Under the pieces are notes generated by a model, which saw only the letters and a program-made list of their open reading frames with translations, ran no database searches and was not told where the DNA came from. The translations under genes and the position numbers were made by a program. A DNA stretch of 57,981 bases, taken from Sulfurimonas sp. (GTDB lineage: Bacteria > Campylobacterota > Campylobacteria > Campylobacterales > Sulfurimonadaceae). How positions within the stretch are numbered: the stretch's first letter is position 1; every line of letters starts with the position of its first letter. Below, piece by piece: positions 5,293 to 41,669 of the stretch. The stretch lies in NCBI RefSeq assembly GCF_026991475.1, contig NZ_JALXBK010000072.1, positions 1 to 57,981 of the forward strand, in the 5' to 3' direction.

Positions 5293-7878
5293 TTAATGTT
5301 TGACATTTATAGGAATTTCAATAATAAAAGTCGTTCTTCCAGCTCTGCTATTGACATTTATTGTCCCATCAAACTGCTTTTCTAAAATCATTTTAGACAT
5401 ATAGAGTCCAAGTCCTGTCCCATTCTTCTCTTTAGTAGAAAAGTATGGTTCAAAAAGCTGTTTCATTACATCTGGTTTTATACCGCCTGCTCTATCTTCT
5501 ATCAAAATTTTTACATGTGAATCAACTTTTTGACTACTAATCACTATAATTTTATCTGATACATATCTATTTTCTATATAAGCATCAATAGCATTGTTAA
5601 GTATATTTAAAATAACTTGAATAAGTTCACTTGAGTAGGTATTTAAAGAGACATCTTCAAAATTTTGCATCTCTATTTGTATATTTTCTTTCTCTAGTCT
5701 AGCATCAATAAAACCTAGAGTTTTTTCTAAAAGAGTTTTTAGGCTTATTTGTGTTGTATTTTTATTTGGTTGAAAATATGTTCTAAAATTATCAATAGTA
5801 GTTGAGAGATACTGTATTGTTTTATTTATCTCTTTTATTACATCTAAAAGTTGTTCTTTTGTTACTGAATGACTTATCATCTCTTGGAGCTGAATATTAG
5901 ATATTTTCAAAGCAATAGTATTTAGAGGTTGTCTCCATTGATGTGCTATCATACTTATCATTTCTCCCATAACAGCTTGTTTAGATTGGGCTGTAAGTAT
6001 CTCATCTTTTTGCAACAGTTCATTAACTTTTTCTTGTACATTAATCTCTAAAGAGTCATTTATTTGACGTAACTCTTTTGTTTTTTGAGCAACACTTTTT
6101 TCTAGTTCTTGATTAAAATTTTTGAGTTTTCTTTGATAATAGATCATCAAAAGAAAAATTATTCCCATCACTATAATTATGTCAATTACTAAAGTATAAT
6201 CTACAACTTTATGATAGCGAGTCAGTCGCCACCCATCAATTATGGACTGGATTTTACTCTCAGCAATTGAATCCAATGTTTTTTGTAAAATTGAATAAAG
6301 CAAAGGATTATCTTTTTGGACACCGACACTTGCTTGAAGTGGATGATCCTTTGCTAAAAAACCATTAATTTTCAATTTTCCATAACCATATTTATCAATA
6401 AAATAATCTGCTTTTTCATCAATATCTACTATGGCATACACTCTATTTTCCAATACTTTTTCAAGCATCTTATTTTTATTATTTTCTACTTCAATATTCA
6501 GATATGGATAGTAATACTGAAGATAGTTTTTATATGCCTTTCTCTGTACTATAAGTAATTTACCTTTGAGTTCAAAAGGTGAATGTATAAATGATTTATC
6601 TAATTTACTCAAAAGCGTAAAATATGTAGCTGTTATAGGTTTAGTTGTTTTAATGGTTTTTAAATTATTTATTTGTTTAGCAGTAATAGATACCAACTGA
6701 CATTTTTTATTTTTTAAGTGTTTTAATAAATCTTCTGCCGAATGAGATACTACAGGGATAAACTTCAGATCTGTTTTTTGAGAAATTATTTGATATAAAT
6801 CAGCCATTATACCAATATATTTTCCATTTTCCATACCACCAACTGGTAAAAAATCATAATTTATACACATAGGAATTGTATGATGATTGCGTATATATTT
6901 TTGTTCTTCTTCTGTAAATTTTAAAGGATTTTTTTTTACTTTAAATATAAACCCATTAAGACTTCGTTTGCTTCCTATATTATATGTTTTTTGAAAAAGA
7001 GTTATTTGTTTATGCAAGAAATTTACATCTATTGAACCTATATCATAGATATATGGCAAAATGAGTTTATCTATTGCATTTGCTTCATATGTTAAAGCAT
7101 CTTTTGAAATATTTGATGCATATTTTCTATGAATTATATCGACAAGCTCTTTTTTATGCGAAAGTGCATATTCCCATCCTCGTATAGATGCCTCTTTAAA
7201 AGCCTCTACTCTTTTTGGATGATTTTGCGCCTCTTTTTTGGAGGTAAACAGTTCTTCTTGCAGTGTAAAAAGATTTTCATTTGAGGGATTTAAAATATTA
7301 TATTTCACACCAAGTTTATCAAGCTTATAGGGTTGATCAGATATATATGCAGTCATAGCATCCACTTTACCCTCAGCAAAAGCTTTTACATTAAAAGTTG
7401 GGGGAATATATGTAAAAGAGTCCAAGCCCACTCCATAACCTTTAAAGTAAGGACCAAAATTGAGTTGCATATCTAATTTACCTGCACACATCACCTTTTT
7501 ACCAATCAAATCTTTAGGAGACTTAATATCTGGTTTAGTGATTAAAACAAGTGCAGAGCGTTTAAAAAATGAAGCAACTAAAACAACGGGCACCCCTTTT
7601 AAATATTCAATTAAAGTAGAAGAGTTATAAATACCATAAGTAGATTTTCCAGATACTACATCTTTTATAACATTCACACCATTTTTATACTCTTTAAAAG
7701 TTACATCAAGCCCTACATCTTTGTAAAAGCCTTTCTCTTTAGCGGCAATAAAACCAGCAAACTCAAACTCATACTTCCAATGTAGTTGCAGAGAGATATG
7801 ATCTAGTCTTCTATAGTTACAATCCCCCATTCCATAAACAGAAGAAAAGAGTATAAGTATAATCCAAAAGAATTTCAT
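5293..7878 (-). CDS. membrane histidine kinase with two periplasmic solute-binding domains
   Basis: 861 residues. A signal peptide leads to an NMT1/THI5-like (SsuA-type) solute-binding domain at about 27-300, a second SBP_bac_3-like domain at about 320-560, a membrane helix near 570-590, a coiled coil, and a kinase core. Kinase marks are AHQWRQP (phospho-acceptor His near 645), NILNNAID (N box), EDRAGGIKP (G1), FEPYFSTK (F) and GTGLGLYMSK (G2). There is no PAS, HAMP or receiver domain, and no response regulator gene adjoins it. It follows the deoxyribosyltransferase gene by 3 bases, so the two are probably co-transcribed. The ligand is unknown; NMT1/THI5 domains bind small pyrimidines, sulfonates or amino acids. 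Confidence 0.9.
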   Translation of the reverse strand: MKFFWIILILFSSVYGMGDCNYRRLDHISLQLHWKYEFEFAGFIAAKEKGFYKDVGLDVTFKEYKNGVNVIKDVVSGKSTYGIYNSSTLIEYLKGVPVVLVASFFKRSALVLITKPDIKSPKDLIGKKVMCAGKLDMQLNFGPYFKGYGVGLDSFTYIPPTFNVKAFAEGKVDAMTAYISDQPYKLDKLGVKYNILNPSNENLFTLQEELFTSKKEAQNHPKRVEAFKEASIRGWEYALSHKKELVDIIHRKYASNISKDALTYEANAIDKLILPYIYDIGSIDVNFLHKQITLFQKTYNIGSKRSLNGFIFKVKKNPLKFTEEEQKYIRNHHTIPMCINYDFLPVGGMENGKYIGIMADLYQIISQKTDLKFIPVVSHSAEDLLKHLKNKKCQLVSITAKQINNLKTIKTTKPITATYFTLLSKLDKSFIHSPFELKGKLLIVQRKAYKNYLQYYYPYLNIEVENNKNKMLEKVLENRVYAIVDIDEKADYFIDKYGYGKLKINGFLAKDHPLQASVGVQKDNPLLYSILQKTLDSIAESKIQSIIDGWRLTRYHKVVDYTLVIDIIIVMGIIFLLMIYYQRKLKNFNQELEKSVAQKTKELRQINDSLEINVQEKVNELLQKDEILTAQSKQAVMGEMISMIAHQWRQPLNTIALKISNIQLQEMISHSVTKEQLLDVIKEINKTIQYLSTTIDNFRTYFQPNKNTTQISLKTLLEKTLGFIDARLEKENIQIEMQNFEDVSLNTYSSELIQVILNILNNAIDAYIENRYVSDKIIVISSQKVDSHVKILIEDRAGGIKPDVMKQLFEPYFSTKEKNGTGLGLYMSKMILEKQFDGTINVNSRAGRTTFIIEIPINVKH

Positions 7879-38128: not shown

Positions 38129-38692
38129 TTAGTTGCAATAATTTGCTAAAAGTCCACTTTTAATAGCATCATAGCGCTCTTGACCTTTAAGCTTTTTCAC
38201 AATTGCAAGTGCAAAACAGATGGCAGTTGCAGGACCGCGAGAAGTCATAACATTTGCATCTTCTACCACCATCATTTTATCACCCATATAGCCCTCTTTT
38301 TTTATCTCCTCTTCTACAGAAGGGTAACAAGTATATTTCTCTTTTAAAACACCCGCTTTATTTAGAGCAAATGGTGCAGCACAGATAGCGCCTATATTTT
38401 TACCTTTTGCATCCATTTCACGCAAGAGATTTTGCACATTTTTATCATCTGCGAGTGCATGTGTACCACCCCATCCACCAGGAAGCACTATCATATCGAG
38501 TTCGTCTGCGTTTACATCTCTTACCTCTACATCAGCCTCAATACTAATGCCATTTGCACCTTTTACCAGCATCACTGCGTTTAGAGAAGCCACTACTACT
38601 TCTATCTCTGCGCGTCTAAGAACATCTATGATGCTCACCGCTTCTATCTCTTCAAATTCACCGGCAAGTGGTACTAAAACTTTTATACTCAT
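38129..38692 (-). CDS. DJ-1/PfpI family protein
   Basis: 187 residues from ATG 38692. VLVPLAGEFEEIEAVSIIDVLRR-type N-terminus with the conserved Glu, the nucleophile elbow GAICAAPFAL (Cys near 103), and TSRGPATAICFALAIV place it with DJ-1/YajL/ThiJ proteins, linked to oxidative or carbonyl stress and chaperone roles. The longer frame starting at 38839 adds 49 basic residues overlapping the divergent gene, so I reject it; AAGGATG precedes ATG 38692. AAACGCAG copies at 38506 and 38575. Confidence 0.9.
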   Translation of the reverse strand: MSIKVLVPLAGEFEEIEAVSIIDVLRRAEIEVVVASLNAVMLVKGANGISIEADVEVRDVNADELDMIVLPGGWGGTHALADDKNVQNLLREMDAKGKNIGAICAAPFALNKAGVLKEKYTCYPSVEEEIKKEGYMGDKMMVVEDANVMTSRGPATAICFALAIVKKLKGQERYDAIKSGLLANYCN

Positions 38693-38795: not shown

Positions 38796-39677
38796 TTGAA
38801 AAATTTACTCGTACTTTTACTTATAGCTTTTTTTTTCATATCCTGTTCCTCAAAACCAGAAACTAAGTCTATAACTATCTCGACAAACCAATGGATAGGC
38901 TATTCACCCCTTTTCTATGCTTATCAAAAGGGCTACCTTAAAAAACTCAACATCAAACTCATAAATAATGTCTCCCTTGCCGAAGCTGCTGATGTTTACC
39001 GTGTAGGACAAGCAAATATGGTCACTACAACACAGCACGAGTACAACTCTTTAAGAGAATCAACACATGACATTGTCCCTATCATCTTACTAGACCGCTC
39101 TAATGGTGGAGACATGGTACTTTCAAACCGTAGCATTGCAGCACTCAAAAAGAGCAAAAAAATCTATGCCTATTTAGAAGTAGACTCCATTAATCAAGAG
39201 ATTTTAAAAGATTTTGTCGCAAACAACTCTATAAATCTCAATAAACTTGTCATCATTAACAAAGATCAGGAGCAGATACACGATGTAGACTTTAAAAAAC
39301 TTAAGAAAAAAGACCTGCTCATTGTTACCTACACTCCTTATGATGTTGCACTCAAAGCAGAAGGTTTTCATGAAGTCGCGTCAACGAAAAACATTGACAC
39401 TATTATTGTTATCGATGCACTCTGCAGCACAAAAGAACTACTAAAAAATAATAAAAAAAGATTACTCAAATTAAAAAAAATAATAGACCAATCAATAGAT
39501 GAAATCAATCAAAACCCACATCAAGCATATAAAACAGTAGCAAGATATCTCTCAAACATTAACTATAATGAATTTACAACTTCACTCAAAAATATCAAAT
39601 GGATAAACAAGCCCTCTGATGATCTTTTAGAGTTCATAAACAAATACCACTACACCAAGGAAAATATACTCAAATAG
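38796..39677 (+). CDS. solute-binding lipoprotein, NMT1/SsuA-like
   Basis: 293 residues. The signal sequence ends in a lipobox, FISC, with Cys near residue 17, so it is probably a lipoprotein. ISTNQWIGYSPLFYAYQKGYL and AADVYRVGQANMVTTTQHEY match the NMT1/SsuA/TauA family of periplasmic binding proteins. The start is TTG, with AAGGA about 10 bases upstream. No ABC permease or ATPase gene is near. Instead the stop directly abuts the ATG of a membrane GGDEF-EAL protein, so the binding protein is more likely a signal receptor than a transporter part. Confidence 0.88.
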   Translation: MKNLLVLLLIAFFFISCSSKPETKSITISTNQWIGYSPLFYAYQKGYLKKLNIKLINNVSLAEAADVYRVGQANMVTTTQHEYNSLRESTHDIVPIILLDRSNGGDMVLSNRSIAALKKSKKIYAYLEVDSINQEILKDFVANNSINLNKLVIINKDQEQIHDVDFKKLKKKDLLIVTYTPYDVALKAEGFHEVASTKNIDTIIVIDALCSTKELLKNNKKRLLKLKKIIDQSIDEINQNPHQAYKTVARYLSNINYNEFTTSLKNIKWINKPSDDLLEFINKYHYTKENILK

Positions 39678-41669
39678 ATGAAAACTATATCAATTAAAAA
39701 ATTCTCTTCTCTCGTATTAGCATTTATACTTGTTAGTGTATTTTTACTTTTTTATGACTTTTATTTAAAAGAAAAACACATCACAGAAACACTGATACAA
39801 ACAAATTTGCAAACTGCTGCACTTAACCTCAATGAATTTTTACGAAAAAATTTTGACCCTGCACATATTGGTACTATTACATCGCAGCTTGATAGTCGTC
39901 TCGTTAGTAATAAAACCCTCTCTTCCATTGAAATTGTCAATGAGCAAAACAAAATTATTTACTCTTCACTAGACTACACAAAAGGAAGATCAGACCAAAA
40001 CAGAACATGTATGCCCATTACACAAATAATGCAAAGCAAACTTGACACAACACCCTGCTATCAATTTGCTATAGAGCATTTTGAAGGTTTGGTAGGACAT
40101 GATTACAAAATAATTTTAGGTATTGATTTACAATACATCTATAAAATACTGACACAAGAAGCACAGCAGATACTTGAAGTTGCACTATTTTTTACTTTCA
40201 TCCTTTTTCTGATTCTCTACTTTTCACTTCATAACTATATCATTAAACCATTAGAAGCACTTAGAAACTATGCATACTATAGTGAGTATTCACCAAAAGA
40301 ATTTATCATAAAAGAGTTTGAATCCATCAGATACTCTTTAGAGATGACATTTAAACGTCTTAAAACAGAGCAGGAAAATCTCTACAACCTCTCTACTAAA
40401 GATCCTCTCACACAGCTTTATAACAGAAATGACCTGCAATCTCAAATAAAGCGTATTATTGCTTCTTCAAAGAGAAGCCATAAAAAATTTGCTATCATTT
40501 TTCTTGATTTAGACAACTTTAAAAATATAAATGACTCTCTAGGTCATCATTTTGGTGATATTGTACTCAAGCGTATCGCTAACTATCTGCGTAATGCTAT
40601 AAGAGAAAATGATGTTCCTGCTAGAATTGGTGGTGATGAATTTCTTGTTGTTCTTCCTGATACTGAAAATGAGCATAGTGTCATTGAAGTTCTTAATCGT
40701 ATCCAGCACCATATTGCTGCTCCGATTCTTATTCAAAAGGAGCGTTATAACATTACAGTAAGTATGGGTGTTGCCATCTATCCAAAAGATGGCAAAGACT
40801 TCAACACACTGCTCAAACATGCAGATATTGCTATGTACAATGCAAAAGCACTTGGCAAAAACAACTACCAGTTCTTTACAGACCAACTCAATAAAAGTGT
40901 CCAAGAGAAGATAAAGATGCAAACACTCCTTGCAACTGCATTAGAAAAAGGTTACTTTGAACTCTTTTACCAACCAAAAGTTGATATAAATACCAATACA
41001 ATAACAGGCTGTGAAGCACTCATTCGTCTTGTGGACCCACAAGAGGGCATCATTGCACCAGATAGATTTATTCCTATAGTAGAAGAGAACGGAATGATAA
41101 TCGCCATAGGAGAGTGGATAATCAAAGAAGCTTGTGAGCAGATACAAAAATGGCAAACAACACCACTCAAAAATATCAAACTCTCCATCAATGTTTCAGG
41201 GGTGCAGCTTGAAGAGAGAAACTTTCTTGAGATGCTTGAAGAAAATCTTAGCTGTATTGAGAGTGCAAAGCTTGACATAGAGCTTACAGAGTCGGTACTT
41301 ATAAGAGAGTTTGATGAAAAAATCAAGCTCCTGCATGAGATGAAAAAACTCGGTATTACACTCTCTTTAGATGATTTTGGTACAGGCTACTCATCACTCT
41401 CATATCTTAGAGACATCCCATTTGATACGCTTAAAATCGACAAAAGTTTCATTGACACAATGCAAGAAAACAGAGCCTTTATAAATATGATAATAGGAAT
41501 TTCACAAGATTTAAAACTTGAAGTAGTCGCAGAGGGCGTTGAAACGCAACAACAACTTGAGTTTCTAAAAGAGATGCAATGTGAGATATATCAGGGTTAT
41601 CTCTGCTCTAAACCTCTTCCTGCACACCAATTTGAAGAGCGTTTTAGAGAGTGTAATCATATCTCATAA
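39678..41669 (+). CDS. membrane GGDEF-EAL protein paired with a binding lipoprotein
   Basis: 663 residues. Membrane helix at about 8-27, periplasmic domain of about 135 residues with two cysteines (TCMPI, TPCYQF), membrane helix at about 166-190, GGDEF domain with intact GGDEF near 317 after DPLTQLYNRND, and EAL domain with EALIRL near 445, DDFGTGYSSLSYL and EVVAEGVE. Both catalytic motifs look complete, so it could make or break c-di-GMP. No spacer separates it from the lipoprotein gene. The arrangement resembles Vibrio NspS-MbaA, where a binding protein reports polyamines to a GGDEF-EAL enzyme. No AAACGCAG copy in it. Confidence 0.92.
   Translation: MKTISIKKFSSLVLAFILVSVFLLFYDFYLKEKHITETLIQTNLQTAALNLNEFLRKNFDPAHIGTITSQLDSRLVSNKTLSSIEIVNEQNKIIYSSLDYTKGRSDQNRTCMPITQIMQSKLDTTPCYQFAIEHFEGLVGHDYKIILGIDLQYIYKILTQEAQQILEVALFFTFILFLILYFSLHNYIIKPLEALRNYAYYSEYSPKEFIIKEFESIRYSLEMTFKRLKTEQENLYNLSTKDPLTQLYNRNDLQSQIKRIIASSKRSHKKFAIIFLDLDNFKNINDSLGHHFGDIVLKRIANYLRNAIRENDVPARIGGDEFLVVLPDTENEHSVIEVLNRIQHHIAAPILIQKERYNITVSMGVAIYPKDGKDFNTLLKHADIAMYNAKALGKNNYQFFTDQLNKSVQEKIKMQTLLATALEKGYFELFYQPKVDINTNTITGCEALIRLVDPQEGIIAPDRFIPIVEENGMIIAIGEWIIKEACEQIQKWQTTPLKNIKLSINVSGVQLEERNFLEMLEENLSCIESAKLDIELTESVLIREFDEKIKLLHEMKKLGITLSLDDFGTGYSSLSYLRDIPFDTLKIDKSFIDTMQENRAFINMIIGISQDLKLEVVAEGVETQQQLEFLKEMQCEIYQGYLCSKPLPAHQFEERFRECNHIS

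Follow-up and report, generated by a model that had tools for sequence, protein, structure and literature searches.

A solute-binding lipoprotein and the GGDEF-EAL enzyme encoded directly after it in Sulfurimonas sp. as a probable two-part ligand-to-c-di-GMP receptor

The described system closest to the gene pair analysed here is NspS-MbaA of Vibrio cholerae, whose solute-binding protein (SBP), NspS, we take to be of the PotD-type, polyamine-binding kind. In LuxP-LuxQ of Vibrio, too, an SBP sits on a periplasmic PDC-type domain, but LuxP presumably belongs to another SBP family and LuxQ is presumably a hybrid kinase, unlike the present pair. RmcA-type enzymes are fusions in which a binding-protein fold drives GGDEF-EAL output, whereas the SBP studied here is a separate protein, although its own genome also encodes an NMT1 fusion. 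As described in the accessible part of PMC8967002, the nspS and mbaA genes overlap, NspS is dedicated to signalling, and docking of liganded NspS favors the cyclase activity of the membrane GGDEF-EAL protein MbaA, which without it acts as a phosphodiesterase. In Salmonella, the dCache c-di-GMP enzyme STM1987 needs the SBP ArtI to respond to arginine, but ArtI is another SBP than ours, and a conserved gene pair is not described in those sections of PMC8846402 that were available. Here we compare with these systems a gene pair in the window, the whole 57,981-nucleotide stretch of Sulfurimonas sp. DNA that was analysed; features lie on its forward strand unless stated otherwise. The first gene (38796..39677; 293 amino acids, TTG start) encodes an NMT1/SsuA-fold solute-binding lipoprotein, and its TAG stop codon directly adjoins, in frame and without a gap (39677/39678), the ATG of the second (39678..41669; 663 amino acids), which the open reading frame list and Pfam identify as a membrane GGDEF-EAL enzyme. 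The initial annotation had described this contact correctly, and had also pointed out that the lipoprotein lacks transporter partners; indeed no ABC gene is adjacent.

We conclude that lipoprotein and enzyme probably form a two-part ligand-to-c-di-GMP receptor. Because the SBP is kept beside a receptor in genome after genome, it is most likely a detachable sensor for the c-di-GMP enzyme. By analogy, the pair most likely works like NspS-MbaA, with which it shares a separate, signalling-dedicated SBP gene in contact with a membrane GGDEF-EAL gene, as first proposed in the initial annotation; the analogy fits the gene order, the variety of outputs among relatives, the fact that no compatible permease was recognised in the genome, and a predicted PDC/Cache-like fold in the enzyme. 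Its SBP places it outside that family: the protein belongs to NMT1 by Pfam and is not PotD-type, a distinction already drawn in the annotation, so the ligand class must differ, and the receptor outputs have been exchanged across relatives of the pair. In the mechanism that we propose, the lipoprotein would be anchored in the periplasm and close around a small ligand, and one of its states may then dock on the PDC/Cache-like domain of the enzyme. Docking would shift the enzyme between c-di-GMP synthesis and breakdown, in a direction that we infer, with a logic modeled on NspS-MbaA. Points against this model are a serine at +2 of the lipoprotein, a reversed co-variation in the nearest clade, and a few lone SBPs or enzymes, all detailed below. 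Moreover, adjacent genes for an SBP and a receptor kinase can encode proteins that do not interact, as reported for AgtS and AruS in the portion of PMC11113362 at hand.

The first protein is of the SsuA/NMT1 type: PF09084 (NMT1) scores 25.6 bits, slightly more than its curated cut-off of 20.5, and among binding-protein models Pfam returns NMT1 families only, with no match to SBP_bac_8 at E up to 1. The AlphaFold2 model (pLDDT 96.3; alignment A1, 85 homologues) has the two-lobed fold of the SsuA/THI5 type, with SsuA 2x26_B as its closest solved fold (Z 22.0, rmsd 3.8, 261 aligned residues), SsuA and TauA being the nearest ones in the structure comparison. A PDB sequence search with the same alignment gave DARPin/ankyrin chance matches only, and no NCBIfam model matches the window protein at E up to 0.1, neither TIGR01728 and TIGR01729 (SsuA/TauA sulfonate SBPs) nor TIGR03427 (cut-off 333.9). 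Its closest named relatives, 92% and 64% identical, come from Sulfurimonas sp. MAGs. After a signal-peptide-like stretch, Cys17 (38844..38846, within FISCSS) is a candidate lipidation site if, as we assume, the lipobox rule applies; 71 of the 102 homologues with a locatable domain start have a lipobox-like pattern. The serine at +2 after this cysteine would favor the outer membrane by the E. coli rule, which we take to hold here. In 20 SBP homologues, counted by eye, a transmembrane-like N-terminus replaces the lipobox (L062-L064, L067-L069, L071-L079, L081-L083, L085 and L086), in agreement with a sensor that stays attached to the inner membrane. The partners of these 20 are all enzymes of about 820 amino acids in which GGDEF is not intact; in the one from L062, Pfam finds GAF, a weak GGDEF and EAL.

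A survey of NMT1-GGDEF gene pairs had been suggested as a check, and the association proved widespread. We examined 142 loci across Campylobacterota: 111 with SBPs at 199 bits or more, 23 at 84-105 bits, and 8 between these groups or fragmentary, the 199-bit line having been drawn after a gap between 199 and 161 bits was visible. Wherever the region downstream of an SBP of at least 199 bits could be seen (all but L029, L058 and L146), a receptor gene follows it directly in 107 of 108 loci; three of the 107 enzyme genes are interrupted (L011, L013 and L136), the dCache-HAMP-PAS receptor of L061 is cut by the contig end, and the SBP of L151 (genome G556) is without a co-oriented receptor. Since the 108 loci are kin to each other, they do not amount to 108 independent events. 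The usual junction is a 4-base overlap (exactly 4 bases in 61 loci), and gaps down to -79 in a few loci stem from taking the first start codon, nearer starts existing in several of them (for example, L012 and L014). By comparison, none of the 23 ABC-type relatives at 84-105 bits has a downstream receptor gene. The eight loci set aside (L105, L171-L173 and L182-L185) comprise SBP fragments beside GGDEF-EAL genes (L183 and L184), an SBP with a PAS-GGDEF gene directly upstream (L172), distant homologues at 118-125 bits with no adjoining receptor (L171 and L173), one broken locus (L105) and two that run off their ends (L182 and L185).

The two genes also travel together at the level of genomes. 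Within the family, 81 of 228 genomes have a homologue of the lipoprotein and 67 of 228 a homologue of the N-terminal (sensor) region of the enzyme, and 65 of these 67 also carry the SBP; at phylum level, a profile search finds matches in 57 of 397 genomes (E up to 1e-15). One exception to co-occurrence, G021, lies at a contig edge, its match beginning at contig base 23, and in the other, G105 (L101), PstS-like and porin-like genes precede an enzyme of weak similarity (22% identity) that has no SBP beside it, which looks like loss of the SBP gene from the pair. In a mirror-tree comparison of 51 pairs, the partial correlation between SBP and sensor region given the catalytic part is 0.53 and that between SBP and catalytic part given the sensor region is 0.18, but in the nearest 20 pairs the order is reversed (0.14 and 0.55); the permutation control for this comparison breaks relatedness, and its value is not a p-value. 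A promoter scan performed no better than on shuffles.

Could the lipoprotein instead be an orphan importer subunit that serves a permease encoded elsewhere and stands before the enzyme by accident? The fold it shares with importer SBPs and the role of its weaker-scoring relatives as importer subunits would favor this explanation, but we consider it very unlikely: adjacency to a receptor is kept in nearly all loci despite changes of receptor type, and the 20 homologues with a transmembrane-like N-terminus have no lipobox. Furthermore, the Sulfurimonas genome, estimated by a tool to be 99.96% complete and assembled in 131 contigs, has five BPD permeases, which we read by eye, from sequence and neighbors, as DppB, DppC, ModB, PstC and PstA; no TauC/SsuC-like permease was recognised among them, so that the compatible ABC permease whose presence elsewhere would, according to the initial annotation, have spoken against the receptor did not come to light. 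In the survey, a homologue of the TauC-like permease of L158, one of the ABC-type loci, is absent from all 111 loci, and ABC ATPases occur in the flanks of 2 of the 111 (L135 and L151). The same genome contains three NMT1 matches, all tied to signalling, which makes an even stronger case than the annotation had made for repeated use of NMT1 folds as sensors. The annotation had placed an NMT1-kinase fusion at position 5293; the fusion is real (5293..7878, reverse strand), but by Pfam an SBP_bac_3 domain lies between NMT1 and the histidine kinase, so that this paralogous protein has two binding-protein folds in tandem. Another contig (C24, L100:3404-6592) encodes a 1062-amino-acid NMT1-SBP_bac_3-GGDEF-EAL fusion, made of the same types of part as the pair. 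In L087, an NMT1 SBP gene adjoins a separate SBP_bac_3-PAS-kinase gene.

The enzyme, which Pfam scores at 170.6 bits for GGDEF and 237.9 bits for EAL, has the layout TM-periplasmic-TM-GGDEF-EAL. Two hydrophobic segments, at about residues 3-32 and 161-189, flank a periplasmic part of some 130 residues that contains Cys111 and Cys127 (40008..40058), close to the roughly 135 residues and two cysteines of the initial annotation, which had seen in this region the docking site. The AlphaFold2 model of residues 1-240 (pLDDT 88.7) consists of a long helix, a small alpha/beta domain and a second long helix. The alpha/beta domain (39774..40157, about residues 33-160, delimited from hydropathy, the model and VIA-align) is predicted to have a PDC/Cache-like fold: VIA-align matches it to KinD (4jgo_B, Z 9.7) and to LuxQ (3c38, Z 8.1; 1zhh_B, Z 7.6), and Foldseek to the LapD orthologue CdgS9 (4u64, E 4e-3). 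By sequence, Pfam gives no Cache family on the enzyme, a profile of the sensor domain finds nothing in the PDB below E 0.75, and a Pfam search at E up to 1 returns GGDEF and EAL only, with no match to the CSS-motif domain. In the GGDEF domain (residues 241-396), the RxxD motif, presumably the inhibitory site, and the GGDEF signature (together 40602..40643) are intact, as are the EAL signature and the further EAL motifs (41013..41603: INVSG, ELTES, DDFGTG, LKIDKSF, AEGVET and YQGYL), which align with those of MucR (5m3c) and MorA (4rnh) and which we take to be the usual catalytic residues. Since all of these motifs are intact, both making and breaking of c-di-GMP are possible activities.

PDC/Cache domains often bind ligands directly, and many of the fold matches of the sensor domain are ligand-bound chemoreceptor domains. 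The enzyme could thus sense alone, with the SBP as a minor modulator, or use its cysteine pair for redox sensing, as in CSS-motif EAL proteins. Self-sensing would agree with the presence of the G105 enzyme without an SBP, but it sits poorly with the retention of the SBP beside receptors with unlike sensor regions (dCache in L055 and L142, PDC-like in the window enzyme). As for redox sensing, the two cysteines do behave as a pair: among 67 aligned partner domains both are present in 22, one in 1 and neither in 44, and, being gained or lost together, they probably form a disulfide. CSS domains likewise have two periplasmic cysteines, as set out in the available text of PMC8846402. The 44 partner domains with neither cysteine and the missing CSS-motif match in the enzyme nevertheless speak against a redox sensor, and in either version an enzyme that senses without its SBP seems unlikely. 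Since neither cysteine occurs in 44 of the 67 domains, we also rejected the pair as a general feature of the docking site proposed in the initial annotation.

The output attached to the SBP varies widely. Classified by motif patterns, the partners include 58 with intact GGDEF and EAL, 26 with EAL and a non-intact GGDEF, 15 kinases and 5 with GGDEF only or truncated, the remaining 3 of the 107 (L011, L136 and L061) falling outside these classes; Pfam, run on 23 partners, agrees with the motif classes wherever it matches, the partners in L056 and L011 having no Pfam match. A quick tree of 115 SBPs, with long branches flagged, places 12 changes of partner class, which indicates that the output has been swapped repeatedly while the arrangement stayed constant. 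The 26 loci that keep EAL with a non-intact GGDEF suggest that the regulated activity is often c-di-GMP breakdown. In two loci (L103 and L136) the enzyme gene is interrupted, by about 1.1 kb in one (G103) and by stretches including a 454-amino-acid open reading frame in the other (G519), probably through mobile elements.

The weaker-scoring relatives give some indication of the ligand. In all 23 loci at 84-105 bits (L155-L169 and L174-L181), genes for a TauC-like permease and for an ABC ATPase come after the SBP gene (23 of 23 for each), and a guanidine-I riboswitch lies upstream in all 18 that were scanned, several also having a guanidine-II riboswitch. The SBPs of L158, L160 and L163 are TIGR03427 (ABC_peri_uca, the guanidine/urea-carboxylase-region SBP), and UAAP1 and UAAP2, proteins associated with urea amidolyase, are also encoded in L158. 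Of the 85 members of A1, 46 match TIGR03427 at E up to 0.01, and no other NCBIfam model matches as many. A layout of SBP, ABC, UAAP and riboswitch has been described for guanidine import and use, in the part of PMC12186494 that was accessible. From this operon layout, the riboswitches and the TIGR03427 matches, we infer that the transporter-type relatives of the sensor SBP family probably bind guanidine. The window SBP shares with TIGR03427 proteins its Pfam-level family and a putative nine-residue pocket set from G35 to D207, but these are importer proteins of a 355-amino-acid class under a guanidine-I riboswitch, whereas the window protein does not match the model, has no ABC permease or ATPase beside it and comes from a genome with no RF00442 match; in the window itself, no riboswitch or other RNA reaches its gathering score. 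RF00442 occurs in 25 of the 228 family genomes, 15 of which also belong to the 81 SBP-carrying genomes (lists compared by reading). As the Sulfurimonas genome lies outside these 25, the pair is independent of guanidine uptake genes, which counts against a guanidine ligand or, at best, lends it no support.

Assignment of residues to the pocket, like what we say of the ligand, rests on conservation. In the 107 signalling SBPs, W33, G35, P38, T79, S102, D106, E128 (39177..39179) and P181 are invariant, and D100, G104, D207 and E82 are nearly so. The pocket motif region with T79, E82, D100, S102, G104 and D106 (39030..39113) is kept, residue by residue, in 103 to 107 of the 107, and in the segment 39330..39416, Y179, P181 and D207 (39414-39416) are kept in 101, 107 and 105. 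Nine of these positions (G35, P38, T79, D100, S102, G104, D106, P181 and D207) are common to the signalling and guanidine groups; the guanidine group has Y for W33, D for E82 and W for Y179, and no aligned E at E128. A long branch separates the two groups in the SBP tree, and change of ligand is common among binding proteins. Because the putative pocket is acidic and common to SBPs of guanidine-riboswitch operons, a small guanidinium- or urea-like cation appears the best ligand class, likelier than sulfonates. Sulfonates and taurine, put forward in the initial annotation, fit such a pocket poorly, and together with pyrimidines we have downgraded them, the pocket being acidic and not SsuA-like. 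An anionic sulfonate or taurine, bound as in SsuA and TauA, would be in keeping with these two being the nearest solved folds and with the matches of TIGR01728 to 13 of the 85 members of A1. However, no NCBIfam model matches the window protein, the conserved residue set is rich in acids, and the D-x-S-x-G-x-D motif was not seen in the SsuA and TauA alignments inspected, all of which makes such a ligand extremely improbable. It is possible, though doubtful, that the SBP and its receptors sense guanidine outside the cell, or a closely similar guanidinium- or urea-like compound, the SBP deriving from a guanidine importer whose transporter was lost and having been taken into the service of c-di-GMP enzymes and kinases across Campylobacterota. 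If so, guanidine would be an external cue for biofilm or motility decisions, beyond a nitrogen source or toxin.

If the pair is a two-part receptor, an SBP lineage known from importers would act as a dedicated sensor beside receptors whose output (c-di-GMP enzyme, cyclase or kinase) is swapped, and the family would be a clean natural set of cases in which to study how a single sensor protein controls different outputs. Chemolithotrophic bacteria of the Sulfurimonas type would thereby have an outside signal feeding into c-di-GMP that can be tested with a short list of ligands. Of the 27 families in the binding-protein clan, only SBP_bac_3 has been studied in c-di-GMP networks according to the part of PMC8846402 available, and the literature searched (one collection) yielded no paper on NMT1 with GGDEF. 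The novelty lies in the SBP lineage, in how broadly it is spread and how its outputs are exchanged within Campylobacterota, and in the connection of its pocket with guanidine importers.

The genes upstream of the pair vary among loci. In the window, the divergent neighbor (38129..38692, reverse strand), which by eye we take to belong to the DJ-1/PfpI family, is retained upstream of the two genes in 19 loci. Among L036-L038, L048, L049 and L101, again judged by eye, a PstS-like gene stands upstream in five loci and a porin-like gene in three of these. In L138, L140, L141 and L144, the same transporter-like gene, of AEC type by eye, lies directly upstream of the pair and is a possible hint at the ligand.
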